Part shown: in pieces, positions 25,490 through 33,866 of the stretch
Numbering within the stretch: position 1 is the first letter of the stretch
Layout: each line of letters opens with the position of its first letter
Assembly: GCA_029051735.1 (NCBI GenBank)
Contig: JAIDKZ010000156.1
Coordinates: 1-42,662, forward strand
Origin: Anaeroplasmataceae bacterium
GTDB lineage: Bacteria; Bacillota_I; Bacilli_A; Acholeplasmatales; Anaeroplasmataceae
Direction of reading: 5' to 3'
DNA: 42,662 bases
Notes under the pieces: model-generated
Databases searched by the model: none
Told to the model about the DNA's origin: nothing
Seen by the model: only the letters and a program-made list of their open reading frames with translations
Made by a program: the position numbers and the translations under genes

Positions 25490-25572
25490 TTATCAAAAAT
25501 GCTTCCATTTTTTTACAAATGTTTAAAAAAACAAAAAATAATAGATAATCTTGATTTTAAATGATATTTTTC

Positions 25573-25601
25573 TTGATACATAAAGAGTTTTACGATATAA
25601 T
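25573..25601 (+). promoter_or_regulatory. Sigma-A-type promoter for the GLUG-like lipoprotein
   Basis: TTGATA - 17 nt - TATAAT; lies inside the ORF-track extension, supporting ATG 25648 as the start. Confidence 0.8.
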
Positions 25602-25647
25602 ATTTAAGAGATTCAAAAAAAATATAAGTGTAAAGGATTTAGGTATT

Positions 25648-27270
25648 ATGAAACGACTTATTATGATATGTTCTACGCTTTGTTTAGGGGTATTACTTTT
25701 ATTAACAGGGTGTTCAAAGAATAATTTACCAAATATAGATGGTAGTTTAAAAATTGTTAATGGTAAAACAAATTTAAGCGTAACAGCTAATTTTACAGAT
25801 TCAGATGATCATGCATTATTTAATGGTAATGTAAGTTCATATATTGTATTGAACAATACAAAAGAAGAAAAAGAGATTACTCGTAAATCTGTTACAATTA
25901 AAAAAGAAAGTGGAGAAGAACCTACACAAACTTTAACAAGCAATAGTTTGGATTTTACTGGTTTGACTGCTGATACAAGTTATACTTTAAAATTGATAAT
26001 TTCAGCTAAAGGAAAACAACGTACAATTTCCACTTCAACAGTTAAAACGATTAACAATGGAGCTTCAGCAGACGATCCTATTAAAATTGAGGATTTAGAT
26101 GGATTGTTAAATATGAATAATGGGAATGATTCATATTATATATTAGAAAAAGATATTGACTTAGGTGGAGAAAAATTGACATCTATATTCAATTCTAGTA
26201 CTTATTTTAAAGGAGTATTTAATGGAAACAATCATATGATTTCAAATTTCTCTTTAGAAAGTAATCAGTATAATGGTTTATTTGGTTATATGTCTAATGC
26301 AGTAGTTGAAAATCTAACATTATCCAATGTTTCTTATGATGCAAACCGTTCAGACACATATTTAGGTGCTTTATCTGGTTATGCTAAGAATTGTACAATA
26401 CGTAATGTTACAATTGATGGATTGAATTTTGTTCATTCAGGTCAAACAACAAGAATGAACTATGTTGGTGGTTTAATTGGTAAAGCCGAGAATTCAACTA
26501 TTGAAAATTGTACAATCAATGGGTTGAAAATTAATATTTCTAGAGCACAATTATATGTATATACAGGTGGCTTTATTGGAGAAAATGAAAATACATTGAT
26601 TACAGATTGTAGTGTTTCAGGAAGCATAGAAGCAACAATTGCATATACTTCTAATGATAATGGTTGTTTATTTTTAGGTGGATTTGTTGGTGCAAATTGT
26701 TCTAACAAAGGTATAAAAAATTGTTACTCTATTGTTGATATTAAAGTTTTAGAGCCAACTTCTGTTACTAGTAGCGGAACAAAAACACATCAAGTACATG
26801 TTGGTGGATTTGCAGGAAGTAATTTCCATGATGGTGCATATTATGATAATTGTGCTGGCGTTGGACAATTAGATGTTACAGTTGCATATTCAACTTATGT
26901 TTGTATTGGTGGATTTGCTGGTAGTACTTTTGCTAAAAATAAAGGAGAAGTAGAGGTAAATACTTCTCGTATGATTAACTGCATTTATGTACCTACAGGA
27001 AAAGGTTTAACTGTTACTTTGATGACGCAAGGTGAGGCAAAAGAAGGTGAAACTGCTCCTTTTACAACACAGGAGGCTTATGTTTCTTTAACAGTTGGTC
27101 GCTATGGTAGTAAAACTGAGCAATCTATGGATAATGTAATTTGTTATTCTAGAAATTTAGTTGTAACGAATACACATGATAATTATAAAGAAACACCATC
27201 TGTAGTTTCTACTATAATCACTGCGTTTAGTCAGACAATTCAAAATGTAATTATTCGTGCAACAGCATAA
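25648..27270 (+). CDS. Lipoprotein with GLUG-like/beta-helix repeats (putative surface adhesin)
   Basis: MKRLIMICSTLCLGVLLLLTGC lipobox; repeats GGLIGKAENSTIENCTING, GGFIGENENTLITDCSVSG, GGFVGANCSNKGIKNCYS, GGFAGSNFHDGAYYDNCAG. Confidence 0.82.
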   Translation: MKRLIMICSTLCLGVLLLLTGCSKNNLPNIDGSLKIVNGKTNLSVTANFTDSDDHALFNGNVSSYIVLNNTKEEKEITRKSVTIKKESGEEPTQTLTSNSLDFTGLTADTSYTLKLIISAKGKQRTISTSTVKTINNGASADDPIKIEDLDGLLNMNNGNDSYYILEKDIDLGGEKLTSIFNSSTYFKGVFNGNNHMISNFSLESNQYNGLFGYMSNAVVENLTLSNVSYDANRSDTYLGALSGYAKNCTIRNVTIDGLNFVHSGQTTRMNYVGGLIGKAENSTIENCTINGLKINISRAQLYVYTGGFIGENENTLITDCSVSGSIEATIAYTSNDNGCLFLGGFVGANCSNKGIKNCYSIVDIKVLEPTSVTSSGTKTHQVHVGGFAGSNFHDGAYYDNCAGVGQLDVTVAYSTYVCIGGFAGSTFAKNKGEVEVNTSRMINCIYVPTGKGLTVTLMTQGEAKEGETAPFTTQEAYVSLTVGRYGSKTEQSMDNVICYSRNLVVTNTHDNYKETPSVVSTIITAFSQTIQNVIIRATA

Positions 27271-27335: not shown

Positions 27336-28664
27336 ATGGGGCTTAAAATTTATAATTCTTTAACAAATCAACTTGAAGAATTTCAAGCCATTCGTTCTAA
27401 AAAAGTGAATATGTATGTTTGTGGCCCTACGGTATATAATTATTGCCATATTGGCAACATGCGTCCAGTTGTATTTTATGATATGCTAAAAAATTATTTA
27501 GAATATTTGGGTTATGAGGTTACTTATGCTTCTAATATAACAGATGTAGATGATAAAATTATTCAAAAGGCAATTGAAGAACATAAATCAGAAAAAGAGA
27601 TTGCAGAATTTTATGAGAAAGCATATTTTGAAGATGCGAAGAAGCTAGGTAGTAAAAAACCAAATATTATTCCTCATGCCACAGAATATATTGATGATAT
27701 GATTTCTTTTATTAAGGAATTAGTGGATAAAGGGTATGCCTATGAGGTTGATGGGGATGTGTTTTTTAGAGTAAACCGCATTATGGATTATGGATGCTTA
27801 TCCAATCAGGTAAGTGAGGATTTAGAACAGGGGGCTAGAATTTCTGTTAATGAAAAAAAAGAAAATCCATTAGATTTTTCTTTGTGGAAAAAGACAGAAG
27901 AGGGCATAAAATGGAATTCTCCTTTTGGTGAAGGAAGACCTGGATGGCATACAGAATGTGTAGTTATGAATCATAAAATCTTTCAAGACCAAATTGATAT
28001 TCATGGTGGAGGGATGGATTTGAAATTTCCACATCATGAAAATGAAATTGCGCAAAGCAAAGCACTTTACCATCATCATCTGGCTAAGTACTGGATGCAT
28101 GTTGGAAGAATGGATTTTGAAGGGCAAAAAATGTCTAAATCCAAAGGTAATGTTATTTTTGTGCATGATTTAGCAAATAATAAGGTGGGAATGATTCTTC
28201 GTATGATATTGGTTTTTACACCATACCGCAATAATTTTTCCTACTCTAATTTAGTATATGAACAATATGAAGCCACTTTTGCTAAATGGCAAAGAGCATA
28301 CAAGCAAGGACTTTATGAATTACAGTTAGCAGATTTTAAAGAAGAATCTTATAGTAAAGAAACTATGAAATTGTTTGAAGATTATATGAATCAGGATTTA
28401 AATGTTCAAAATGTTATGACTTTGCTTGAGGGGTTAATTAAGGAATTGAACGCTTATATTCGGGTAAAAGATTTAAAGCAAATTAGTGTAAAGTTAAATA
28501 CAATTCGCAAAATATTAGATGTTTTAGGAATTGATTTGTTTGTAAATCCAATGAAAGAACATGAATTAGATGTTTATAAGAAATGGATCAATGCTAGAAA
28601 TGCTAAGGATTACACAGCAGCAGATCAATATCGTAAACAACTTGTAGAATGGGAAATAGTTTAA
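27336..28664 (+). CDS. cysS: Cysteinyl-tRNA synthetase
   Basis: MYVCGPTVYNYCHIGNMRP, FGEGRPGWHTECVVM, GGGMDLKFPHHENEIAQS, KMSKSKGN. Confidence 0.97.
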   Translation: MGLKIYNSLTNQLEEFQAIRSKKVNMYVCGPTVYNYCHIGNMRPVVFYDMLKNYLEYLGYEVTYASNITDVDDKIIQKAIEEHKSEKEIAEFYEKAYFEDAKKLGSKKPNIIPHATEYIDDMISFIKELVDKGYAYEVDGDVFFRVNRIMDYGCLSNQVSEDLEQGARISVNEKKENPLDFSLWKKTEEGIKWNSPFGEGRPGWHTECVVMNHKIFQDQIDIHGGGMDLKFPHHENEIAQSKALYHHHLAKYWMHVGRMDFEGQKMSKSKGNVIFVHDLANNKVGMILRMILVFTPYRNNFSYSNLVYEQYEATFAKWQRAYKQGLYELQLADFKEESYSKETMKLFEDYMNQDLNVQNVMTLLEGLIKELNAYIRVKDLKQISVKLNTIRKILDVLGIDLFVNPMKEHELDVYKKWINARNAKDYTAADQYRKQLVEWEIV

Positions 28665-29041
28665 TGGATGCTGTATTATTAAATGGTTTAACATTAGCTT
28701 ATATTGGAGATGCAGTATATGAAATATATATTCGCCAGTATGCATTAAATTTAAATTTAACCAAGGTAAATGATTTACATAAAAAAGCAATTCAATATAC
28801 AAATGCTTCTTTTCAAGCTAAGGCGATTCATTATTTAATAGATAATCACTTTTTAGAAGAGGATGAAATAAAAATTTATAAAAGAGGAAGAAATTCTCAT
28901 GTTCATACCGCAAGAAAAAATGTTGATTTATCTGAATATTTGGATGCTACAGGATTTGAAGCATTGATAGGATATTTATATTTAAATGATCAAAAAAATC
29001 GATTGGAAAAAATTATTGAAATTTCTATTGATTTAGATTAG
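28649..29041 (+). CDS. mrnC: Mini-ribonuclease 3
   Basis: LAYIGDAVYEIYIRQY, KRGRNSHVHTARKN, ATGFEALIGYLYL; directly after cysS. Confidence 0.93.
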   Translation: MGNSLMDAVLLNGLTLAYIGDAVYEIYIRQYALNLNLTKVNDLHKKAIQYTNASFQAKAIHYLIDNHFLEEDEIKIYKRGRNSHVHTARKNVDLSEYLDATGFEALIGYLYLNDQKNRLEKIIEISIDLD

Positions 29042-29050
29042 GAGGTAACT

Positions 29051-32000
29051 ATGGCAACTTTTGATGATAAAAGTATATTTGGTAAAAAAGAAGATACTGA
29101 AGAAAAAGTTAAAGAAGAAGAGTCAGAAGAAGCTTTAGAGGAGACAGCAGAAGAACTTATAGAAGAGGAAACTGCTGAAGAAATAGCTGAAGATGAAAAT
29201 GAAGATGCTATTGTCATTGGAGAAGAAGTTATTGAAAGTGACAAGGTTCGGAAAAAAAGAGAAAAACGCGAGGCTAAAGAGCAAAAAATTGCTGATAAGC
29301 AATATGCTAAAATGGTAAAAAAGCATCGTAAAGAAATGAAAAATAATCCTGAAAATATCAAAAGATATAATACAGATGCTGATAAAGGATTGCCAGATGA
29401 AGTAGTTGAAAAGCGTATTTTAGATGATTTGGTAAATGTTACTAAAAAAGGATCTTCTAAATCTCGTAAAATGATTGTAATTTCTAACATCTTTACTTTC
29501 TTCAATATTTTAACATTATCTATTGCAATATGGTTGATGACCATCCAAGCATGGACAGATTTGGTATTTTTAGTAATTGTTACTGCTAATACTGTAATTG
29601 GAATTTATCAGGAATTAAAAGCAAAGAAGACCATTGATCGATTATCTTTACTTTCTGCACCAAGTGCTGTAGTAGTTCGTGGTGGAGTGACCAAAGAAAT
29701 CAATGTGGTTGATGTTGTTTTAGATGATTTGATTATTTTAAATTCTGGTAATCAGATCTGTGCAGATAGTGTTGTTGTTGATGGGTCAGTAGAAGTTAAT
29801 GAATCTTTGCTTACTGGTGAAAGTAATGCAATTATAAAAAAACCAGGTGACTTGTTATTTTCTGGTTCATATGTAGTGTCTGGAAAATGTCGTGCTCGAG
29901 TTGATAAGGTTGGTAAGGATAATTATATTGAAAAACTTTCTGATCAGGCTAAAAAATATCAAAAGCCAAACTCTGAATTATTAAAATCATTAAAATGGAT
30001 TATATATGCAATGGCATTTTTGATTGTGCCAATTGGTGTAGCTTTATTTTGCTTACAGTTATTCAACAGTGGTATTCCTTATGTTACAGCTGTAAGAAAG
30101 ACAGCAGGTGCCATGGTGGGTATGATTCCATCAGGATTATGGTTATTAACATCTGTAGCTTTATTTGTTGGTGTAATCAAATTATCTCAGAGGAATGTAT
30201 TAGTTCAAGAATTATATTGCATTGAAATGCTAGCTAGAATTAATGTTTTATGTTTGGATAAGACAGGTACAATAACGGATGGAACAATGAGTGTGAAGAA
30301 TGTCATTGATTATAATACGTTATATGGGATGACAACAAAGAATATAATTTCAGCAATGTTAAATGCGCTCAATGAACATAATTTAACCTCAAAGGCTTTA
30401 GAAGAAGAATTTGGATTGAATAAACGTATAAAGCATACAGCAACAATTCCGTTTAGTTCACAAAGAAAGTTTAATGCAGTTACCTTTGATAAAATGGGGA
30501 CTTTTGCGTTAGGAGCTCCAGAATTTGTTTTAAAGAAGAATTTTGATCAGATTAGTAAAGAAGTAAATAAATATGCTGGAATGGGGTATCGTGTACTTTG
30601 TTTGGCACATTTTAACGGTACAATTAATGATAATCAACTTCCTGCTTCAGAACCAGAGGTTATATCATTGATTTTAATAGAGGATAATATTCGTCCAGAT
30701 GCGATTAACACAATCAATTATTTTAAAGAAAGTGGAGTATCTGTAAGAGTAATATCTGGAGATAATCCAATTACTGTATCCAAAATTTCAGAGCGTGCAG
30801 GAATAGAAAATGCAGATCAGTATATCTCTTTAGATGGTCTTTCTGATGCAGAAGTCGAAAGAGCAGCATTAAAGTATACAGTGTTTGGGCGTGTTTCTCC
30901 TTCTCAAAAGAAGCTTTTAGTTACTACGTTAAAGAAGTCTGGTAAGAAAGTAGCAATGACAGGTGATGGTGTTAACGATATCCTTGCTTTAAGAGAAGCA
31001 GATTGTTCTATTGCTATCGCATCTGGTAGTGAGGCTGCTCGTAATGTTAGTCATTTAGTTCTTTTGGATTCTAATTTTGATTCTATGCCTAAAGTAGTTT
31101 CAGAGGGTAGAAGAGTAATCAACAATGTTACAAGTGTTGCTTCCTTATTTTTAACTAAAACAATTTTCTCATTACTTTTAGCAATTCAAGCTATGATTAA
31201 TGGTGGTGCATATCCTATATCTACAAATCAGTTGATCATGATTGATTTGTTTGCAATTGGTATTCCATCATTCTTCTTAGCATTAGAACCAAACAATAAA
31301 GAAGTTGAAGGAAATTTCTTAGGAAATATTTTAAAAGGTGCCTTGCCTGGTGCTTTGACAATTATGATGATTTCTTTGCTGATTTTTGGATTATCTAATA
31401 GTTTAAGTTTGGATACAATTTCCATTCAAACAATTATTGTTATTGCGGCTACTCATACTTGTTTAATGGTATTATTTAAAGTATCAAAACCATTTAATAC
31501 TTTGCGAAGAACATTATGTATTTGTTGTTATGGAGCTTTCCTAATTATTGCATTCTTGTTGCCTCAGTTCTTAGAATTTAGGCCAGTTGTTCCTTTTTCA
31601 GAATATTATTCAAGCAGTATTCGTGAGGATAGACTGATGTTTACACCTCAAATAGAGATTAGTAAAGATTATTATTATGTGTTTGATGGAAAGGTAACAA
31701 AATATCAAAAAGTTTCATCAGAAAACAATATAAATATATCTTGTTTTCATGATTTATCTTTAGACAAATATTTTTATGTATTTAATGGTACTAATATTAA
31801 AGAGGAAGTTGTAATTCCTAATATCAGTTTTATGTCAGATGGAAGTGTTGTATTGGGCGGAACAACAGTTTTCTATGAAGAAGAAGTTGATGGCGTTAGT
31901 CAAAAGAAAAGTATTATGTATGAACCTGGTTTTGAATCTAAATTTAAAGTCAAATCAGATGGTAAATTAGAATATAATGGTAAACCAGTTATGAGAACAT

Positions 32001-32857
32001 TAACTGCTACAGATGAATATTATGGTTTTTATAACAAATATGGAAAAAATCAGACTTTGGATATTCAAATTTGTATTATGCCTACAGTGGAACTTAAAAA
32101 TGATCAGTTGACTGTAACACCTCGTATTTCTAATATCAATTCTGCTCAGGATTCTACTACAAAAACTTATAAGATAAATATTTCATCAAAGGAAAATTTA
32201 AAATTATCAATTGATGAAAATACTTTAGAATTACTAGTCAATGGGCAAAAACTTGGTAATATGTTAGAAGATGGATCTATTTCTTCTAATACATATAAGG
32301 TAGAATTACCAACAGTATCTTTTGACAAGGATAGAAATATTATTATCAATGGATTAGATACAGAGATTAATGCTTCTTTATTTGATGTGGAGGTTAAGGA
32401 TGGATTGGTTTCCAATTCATCTAATATAAAGGTATTACCTTATGATGCTTCTTATTATCTTGTAGATAAGAATACTTCAACAGTAAGTGCTGGAATGAAT
32501 ACTTCAATTCGTTTATCCAATCCATTAATATGTCCAGATGTTACAACTACAGTTAGTGGTAATTATATTATTGATGGTTATTATACAGATTTTGCAGTTA
32601 CATCTAATACTCCAGATCCAAAAATAGATGGAGATTATAACTTGATTTTAGGTGGTGTAGTCACAGATTATAGGATTTCTCCTAATCTAGTGTCTACAAA
32701 TACAAGTGGCATTGTTAAGCAATTAACAATTCAAGCTAAAATATTTTTATTAATGTTATGCTTGCTTGCAGTTCCATCAATGAATTTATTACAGGCTATA
32801 GTTCCTTGGATTAAAAGACAAATTGCATTGATTCAAAAAATATTATCTAAATTTTAA
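29051..32857 (+). CDS. Cation-translocating P-type ATPase with acidic N-terminus and large extracytoplasmic-type insert before the last TM helix
   Basis: TGES, DKTGTITDG, MTGDGVNDILALREADCSIA; 1268 aa; SD AGGAGGT. Confidence 0.9.
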   Translation: MATFDDKSIFGKKEDTEEKVKEEESEEALEETAEELIEEETAEEIAEDENEDAIVIGEEVIESDKVRKKREKREAKEQKIADKQYAKMVKKHRKEMKNNPENIKRYNTDADKGLPDEVVEKRILDDLVNVTKKGSSKSRKMIVISNIFTFFNILTLSIAIWLMTIQAWTDLVFLVIVTANTVIGIYQELKAKKTIDRLSLLSAPSAVVVRGGVTKEINVVDVVLDDLIILNSGNQICADSVVVDGSVEVNESLLTGESNAIIKKPGDLLFSGSYVVSGKCRARVDKVGKDNYIEKLSDQAKKYQKPNSELLKSLKWIIYAMAFLIVPIGVALFCLQLFNSGIPYVTAVRKTAGAMVGMIPSGLWLLTSVALFVGVIKLSQRNVLVQELYCIEMLARINVLCLDKTGTITDGTMSVKNVIDYNTLYGMTTKNIISAMLNALNEHNLTSKALEEEFGLNKRIKHTATIPFSSQRKFNAVTFDKMGTFALGAPEFVLKKNFDQISKEVNKYAGMGYRVLCLAHFNGTINDNQLPASEPEVISLILIEDNIRPDAINTINYFKESGVSVRVISGDNPITVSKISERAGIENADQYISLDGLSDAEVERAALKYTVFGRVSPSQKKLLVTTLKKSGKKVAMTGDGVNDILALREADCSIAIASGSEAARNVSHLVLLDSNFDSMPKVVSEGRRVINNVTSVASLFLTKTIFSLLLAIQAMINGGAYPISTNQLIMIDLFAIGIPSFFLALEPNNKEVEGNFLGNILKGALPGALTIMMISLLIFGLSNSLSLDTISIQTIIVIAATHTCLMVLFKVSKPFNTLRRTLCICCYGAFLIIAFLLPQFLEFRPVVPFSEYYSSSIREDRLMFTPQIEISKDYYYVFDGKVTKYQKVSSENNINISCFHDLSLDKYFYVFNGTNIKEEVVIPNISFMSDGSVVLGGTTVFYEEEVDGVSQKKSIMYEPGFESKFKVKSDGKLEYNGKPVMRTLTATDEYYGFYNKYGKNQTLDIQICIMPTVELKNDQLTVTPRISNINSAQDSTTKTYKINISSKENLKLSIDENTLELLVNGQKLGNMLEDGSISSNTYKVELPTVSFDKDRNIIINGLDTEINASLFDVEVKDGLVSNSSNIKVLPYDASYYLVDKNTSTVSAGMNTSIRLSNPLICPDVTTTVSGNYIIDGYYTDFAVTSNTPDPKIDGDYNLILGGVVTDYRISPNLVSTNTSGIVKQLTIQAKIFLLMLCLLAVPSMNLLQAIVPWIKRQIALIQKILSKF

Positions 32858-33146: not shown

Positions 33147-33866
33147 ATGATTAAAATCTATGGTAAAAATTGTATCTATGAAGCTATTCGTGCAAAAAGC
33201 AGAATCAAAAAGATTTATTTATCCTTTGAGGTATCAAAAAAAGATTCAAAGTTTTTATGTATGTTAAATGATAAAAAGATTTCATATGACATCGTAGATA
33301 AAAAACAAATGGATCAAATTTTTGGGAATGGACATCAGGGATATGGTGCATATCGTGAGGAGTATAAGATTTATAATGAGGGGATTATAGATGAGATTGT
33401 TGGAACCTCTAAACGATTGTTACTACTGGATGGTATTATGGATCCGCATAATCTAGGAGCAATTATACGTAGTGTGGATGCTTTTGGATATGATGCAGTA
33501 ATTTTACCTAAAAATAGAAGCTGTAGTATAACTGAAGCAGTTGCACATGTTTCTACTGGAGCGATAGAACATGTAAAAATTGCCTATGTAAATAGCCTTT
33601 CCACCTTTGCTTTAAAACTTAAGGAAAAGGGATACTGGCTTTGTGGTACAGATGCTTCAGGTAATGATTCTTTGGAATCTCTAGATTTATCCTTAGATTT
33701 AGCTGTTATTATTGGATCAGAGGGCTTTGGAATGAATAAAACCTTATTAAAAATGGTGGATTATTTAATATCTATTCCTATGATAGGACATGTAAACAGT
33801 TTAAATGCTTCTGTAAGTACAGGTATTGTTCTATATAGGACAAGAAAAAATGGAAGGATATTATAA
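33147..33866 (+). CDS. rlmB: 23S rRNA (guanosine-2'-O-)-methyltransferase, TrmH/SpoU family
   Basis: LLLDGIMDPHNLGAIIRSVDAFG, VIIGSEGFGMNKTLL, SIPMIGHVNSLNASVSTGIVLY. Confidence 0.94.
   Translation: MIKIYGKNCIYEAIRAKSRIKKIYLSFEVSKKDSKFLCMLNDKKISYDIVDKKQMDQIFGNGHQGYGAYREEYKIYNEGIIDEIVGTSKRLLLLDGIMDPHNLGAIIRSVDAFGYDAVILPKNRSCSITEAVAHVSTGAIEHVKIAYVNSLSTFALKLKEKGYWLCGTDASGNDSLESLDLSLDLAVIIGSEGFGMNKTLLKMVDYLISIPMIGHVNSLNASVSTGIVLYRTRKNGRIL

Follow-up and report, generated by a model that had tools for sequence, protein, structure and literature searches.

A beta-hairpin repeat domain, predicted to lie outside the cell, in the M9-M10 loop of a P-type ATPase of Anaeroplasmataceae

A P-type ATPase of an Anaeroplasmataceae bacterium carries, between its last two membrane helices, a large domain of tandem beta-hairpin units which is predicted to face the outside of the cell. 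The gene lies in a stretch of 42,662 nucleotides, here called the window. The anatomy of the domain, its repeat nature, its pattern of conservation, its apparent single gain and one replacement between species were established computationally; a role at the cell surface is what we infer. Tentatively, and a little short of calling it probable, we read the protein as a CtpE/P6-like pump to which a surface-protein module has been joined, the module having a conserved base at the membrane, a variable part outside and no role in ion chemistry.

The identification as a P-type ATPase, proposed in a first-pass annotation, is borne out. The protein possesses the DKTGT, TGES and GDGVND motifs (Table 1), scores far above the Pfam cut-offs for the E1-E2_ATPase and Hydrolase (HAD) domains and exceeds the cut-off of TIGR01494; it belongs to the P-type ATPase superfamily. 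All sequence strings quoted in that annotation sit where it had placed them. All scores against the NCBIfam equivalogs for Ca, Mg, H, K and heavy-metal P-type ATPases are far below cut-off. The nearest solved sequence in the PDB is LMCA1, the Ca-ATPase of L. monocytogenes. The M4 Glu of Ca-pumps is replaced by Ser (S361), as in 51 of 52 orthologues, and by alignment with LMCA1 the M6 Asp is replaced by Ile (I736; Ile in 45 of 52 orthologues). For the P6 family, M4 is described with the motif PEGL and M6 with an Ile (PMC10654040); the window pump has the Ile but not the PEGL. Judged by sequence it may be described as CtpE/P6-like. The invariance of the M5 lysine K703 may bear on which ion is moved. 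N-terminal tails resembling the acidic tail of the window pump are found in insert-free relatives. An antisense open frame of 168 aa (window 29038-29544, minus strand) lies over this acidic region and is probably spurious.

Table 1. Positions of the pump gene, its parts and its neighbours in the window.
Feature	Positions	Strand	Basis or remark
P-type ATPase gene, predicted outer domain in loop M9-M10	29051..32857	+	1268 aa; PF00122/PF00702, motifs, best PDB match LMCA1
N-terminal cytoplasmic tail, acidic, Lys/Glu-rich, residues 1-120	29051..29410	+	composition
TGES actuator motif, residues 255-258	29813..29824	+	
M4 motif GMIPSGLWLLTS, residues 357-368	30119..30154	+	PSGL instead of PEGL
DKTGT phosphorylation motif, residues 403-407	30257..30271	+	
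GDGVND hinge motif, residues 638-643	30962..30979	+	
M5 Lys K703	31157..31159	+	invariant in 52/52 orthologues and 6/6 paralogues
Helix M9, ~residues 822-840	31514..31570	+	hydropathy, AlphaFold2 model
Predicted outer domain, ~residues 845-1226, tandem beta-hairpin units	31583..32728	+	AlphaFold2, repeat comparison
Conserved membrane-proximal part, first units, residues 845-941	31583..31873	+	pairwise identity 0.22-0.43; length near-constant except unit 2
Variable middle of domain, residues 942-1160	31874..32530	+	pairwise identity 0.11-0.34; most indels
Last units with exit strand, conserved, membrane-proximal, residues 1161-1226	32531..32728	+	pairwise identity 0.39-0.49; length almost constant
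Helix M10, residues 1229-1250; basic cytoplasmic tail after	32735..32800	+	hydropathy, AlphaFold2 model
mrnC (Mini-ribonuclease III, by-eye reading), upstream neighbour	28649..29041	+	same order in most related loci
rlmB (rRNA methyltransferase, by-eye reading), downstream neighbour	33147..33866	+	same order in most related loci

Hydropathy resolves ten membrane segments, M1 to M10, and an AlphaFold2 model of residues 120-1268 (pLDDT 75.9, pTM 0.53) contains the same ten helices. Ca-ATPase structures match this model. About 375 residues separate M9 from M10, and here the model has an all-beta stretch. This agrees with the beta-rich insert between the last two helices that had been read from the sequence; of its proposed limits, 31582-32730, the first lies one base out of frame, 31583 being the position in frame. 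In ten-helix P-type ATPases the M9-M10 loop usually lies outside. From this topology, together with basic residues after M8 and M10 of the window pump, the loop is predicted to be outside the cell and not in the cytoplasm, in line with what had first been supposed.

Modelled by itself the insert is all beta with a recurring strand-turn-strand pattern (mean pLDDT 88.7, pTM 0.81; built from 33 sequences, the five models spanning 70 to 88.7 pLDDT). About ten hairpin units were counted by eye on the DSSP string. A single profile comparison of the first with the last unit pair indicates homology (98% probability, E 1.7e-13). What had been described as 'degenerate beta-like units' are true homologous repeats. 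The confident all-beta fold has no confident match in the PDB: Foldseek against the PDB and viral models yielded none at E <= 0.001, with TM about 0.1, and a PDB search with the insert sequence alone yielded no match. The insert profile gave weak matches to propellers and sialidases (best E 0.011). Propellers also appear among the weak Foldseek matches, but a beta-propeller fold was rejected on the TM-scores of about 0.1. In Pfam and NCBIfam matches of the insert were below threshold, and none was to a metal-binding family. A characterised homologue with the same domain was not found, nor did literature searches of partial coverage reveal any account of it.

Other Bacilli have lipoproteins with similar units: one carries SH3 and NlpC/P60 domains, others are collagen-like. 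The similarity is weak: in a search of 392 genomes, E values were 1e-4 to 5e-4 per genome, where about 0.4 chance matches are expected at 1e-3. Because of this weakness a common origin of the insert units and the lipoprotein repeats is likely, not proven. In one genome, G021, the nucleotide-binding domain of an ABC transporter (L115:2132-4282, minus strand) is longer by about 92 residues, placed between 'RFYE' and 'GYIFIDD', and two units similar to those of the pump are among them. The insertion would lie in the cytoplasm, and orthologues of about 612-617 aa in other genomes are devoid of the insertion. A widespread in-frame mobile element was considered and rejected: the ABC-transporter insertion is limited to this genome, and other lax unit matches, when inspected, were weak or due to chance.

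The pump core is present in 151 of 160 genomes of Acholeplasmatales. Many orthologues outside Anaeroplasmataceae share 60-63% core identity with the window pump, and their frames are mostly ~780-950 aa long. Two longer insert-free frames were inspected. The extra length is a long N-terminal tail in one; the other, from a small-genome relative (L117, G101), continues into rlmB as a single open frame of 1065 aa. The insert profile matches 49 of the 160 genomes, all Anaeroplasmataceae. Leaving aside the ABC transporter of G021, the insert resides in the pump of 48 genomes from six genera, among them the cultured Anaeroplasma bactoclasticum ATCC 27112. A sample of 395 genomes of the class gave 18 matches, again all within Anaeroplasmataceae; neither the rest of this sample nor the remaining families of the order gave any. 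The insert is thus confined to one family and, as had been suspected, atypical of bacterial P-type ATPases in that related pumps of the order lack it. In Anaeroplasmataceae without a match the gene is mostly broken at contig ends or missing from the assembly; G054 has a complete pump of 901 aa without insert. A core tree unites every insert-bearing row in a single clade (support 100/100). The sole insert-free row inside this clade (L046) is cut by a contig end just past the insert start. Apparently, a single gain explains the distribution.

In the window, cysS precedes mrnC, and rlmB is followed by a sigma-like gene, secE and nusG (names from reading the sequences). The order cysS-mrnC-pump-rlmB-secE-nusG is common to insert-free relatives, which indicates that a resident pump gained the domain. 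Upstream of cysS a probable lipoprotein with GLUG motifs (PF07581) is encoded (window 25561-27270, plus strand). Some family members possess a paralogous pump (L049-L054; ~39% identity, 870-900 aa), whose M9-M10 loop has about 45 residues and by eye is unrelated to the insert.

The domain is conserved at both ends and variable in its middle (Table 1), and its length varies from 287 to 491 aa among homologues. In close pairs, dN/dS is ~0.12-0.13 for the insert compared to ~0.01-0.03 for the core. The insert is under purifying selection, yet several times looser than the pump core; values well below 1 do not point to strong diversifying selection.

In one pair of genomes, G002 and G003 (loci L022/L023 and L071/L073), the insert has a dS of 0.018 and the core a dS of 0.52; the domain is 99% identical. 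Across 8.15 kb identity is mostly 84-97%, whereas it is 96-100% at ~5.1-6.6 kb, approximately from M7 to M10, and the near-identical tract is confined to ~1.5 kb. This is best read as a replacement of the domain-coding segment between species by recombination. The evidence comes from one pair of metagenome assemblies, for which an assembly artefact is unlikely but possible. The broader idea of a new class of pump-borne ectodomain, in which a bacterial pump anchors an exchangeable, modular surface domain in the membrane and descends vertically while the ectodomain recombines between species, is for the time being speculative.

We propose that the resident CtpE/P6-like cation pump of Acholeplasmatales would have acquired the module in a single event, in the common ancestor of those Anaeroplasmataceae that bear it, and that the module, some ten beta-hairpin units in tandem, would derive from a repeat family of bacterial surface lipoproteins. 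The ends of the domain, adjoining M9 and M10 at the membrane, would constitute the conserved base, and the middle, variable between species, would face outward. The domain is probably outside ion binding and ATP chemistry. Most likely it would be a surface module for contact, shielding or recognition with the pump as its membrane anchor; the conserved base may also steady the pump.

The main rival, possible though doubtful in our view, takes the domain for a fused cap which resembles a beta subunit. Both readings predict an outside domain. The fixed position next to M9 and M10, a single gain with almost no loss, purifying selection and a base conserved at both ends are in keeping with a cap, and near-universal retention fits a structural role for the pump as well. 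Elsewhere among P-type ATPases, KdpC and beta subunits act as extracellular partners (PMC10654040). Yet close orthologues manage without the domain throughout the order, hence the pump does not need it, and neither the range of lengths nor the poorly conserved middle is what one would expect of such a cap. Less probable is a largely neutral insertion, i.e., a repeat module tolerated in a permissive loop. Rapid change and indels, and the similar two-unit stretch which interrupts the ABC transporter of G021, agree with it; retention of the open frame across six genera (48 genomes), a dN/dS of about 0.12 and a confident fold argue against it. Slightly more improbable still is an extracellular cation buffer or sensor which feeds or regulates the pump, as the first-pass annotation had considered. 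The acidic character is real, since net charge is negative in 33 of 33 homologues examined (-11 to -35). Conserved ligands, however, are not evident: position 1206 is the only conserved acidic one, Cys and His are conserved nowhere, and metal-binding families gave no match. The cell-wall anchor also suggested there is very improbable and, as a shared role, contradicted: penicillin-binding transpeptidases are found in the window's own genus, but many insert-bearing genomes, Anaeroplasma bactoclasticum and the nearly complete G011 (98% complete), G015, G019, G027, G041, G042 and G044 included, have no match to them, and insert-free G054 has two. Several genomes without wall enzymes keep the insert, so peptidoglycan anchoring is not what the domain is shared for. 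A published survey likewise describes Anaeroplasmataceae as a mixture of genomes with and without peptidoglycan genes (PMC10868615).

Anaeroplasmataceae are gut and rumen bacteria, and the outer domain is kept almost everywhere in the family. The large outer parts known for P-type ATPases are mainly separate subunits. A natural fusion limited to one lineage, with close orthologues at the same locus that lack the insert, allows a clean comparison of before and after, in which the effect of the outer domain on the pump, or the value of the pump as an anchor, can be addressed. Interspecies exchange would show a housekeeping pump to be capable of bearing a variable surface module, which would be relevant to surface construction in wall-poor gut bacteria.

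How does the window pump compare with known systems? CtpE and P6 ATPases, homologues of which are reported in Tenericutes, share with it ten helices and the Ile at the M6 site (Palmgren 2023, PMC10654040; Gupta 2017, PMC5615198). They differ in M4, PEGL versus PSGL, and M. smegmatis CtpE with 791 aa is too short for an outer domain of this kind. The best solved relatives, the Ca-ATPases LMCA1 and SPCA1, have the core fold and catalytic motifs in common with the window pump; identity, however, is ~20%, the M4 and M6 Ca ligands are replaced in the window pump, and the solved chains of ~880 aa are without a large M9-M10 domain. The hairpin repeats of surface lipoproteins ('GYW.IDG..T', near DUF4988 and collagen-flanked repeats) resemble the insert in unit pattern and tandem arrangement, and their own Pfam matches are also below cut-off; they sit on lipoproteins, whereas the insert units are within a membrane pump. 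To KdpC, the Na,K-ATPase beta subunit and Cdc50 the insert has no match in the PDB, either by sequence or by Foldseek at E <= 0.001. These partners nevertheless place, as the window pump is predicted to do, a large outer domain beside the pump; they are separate subunits, whereas the outer domain of the window pump is part of the same chain.
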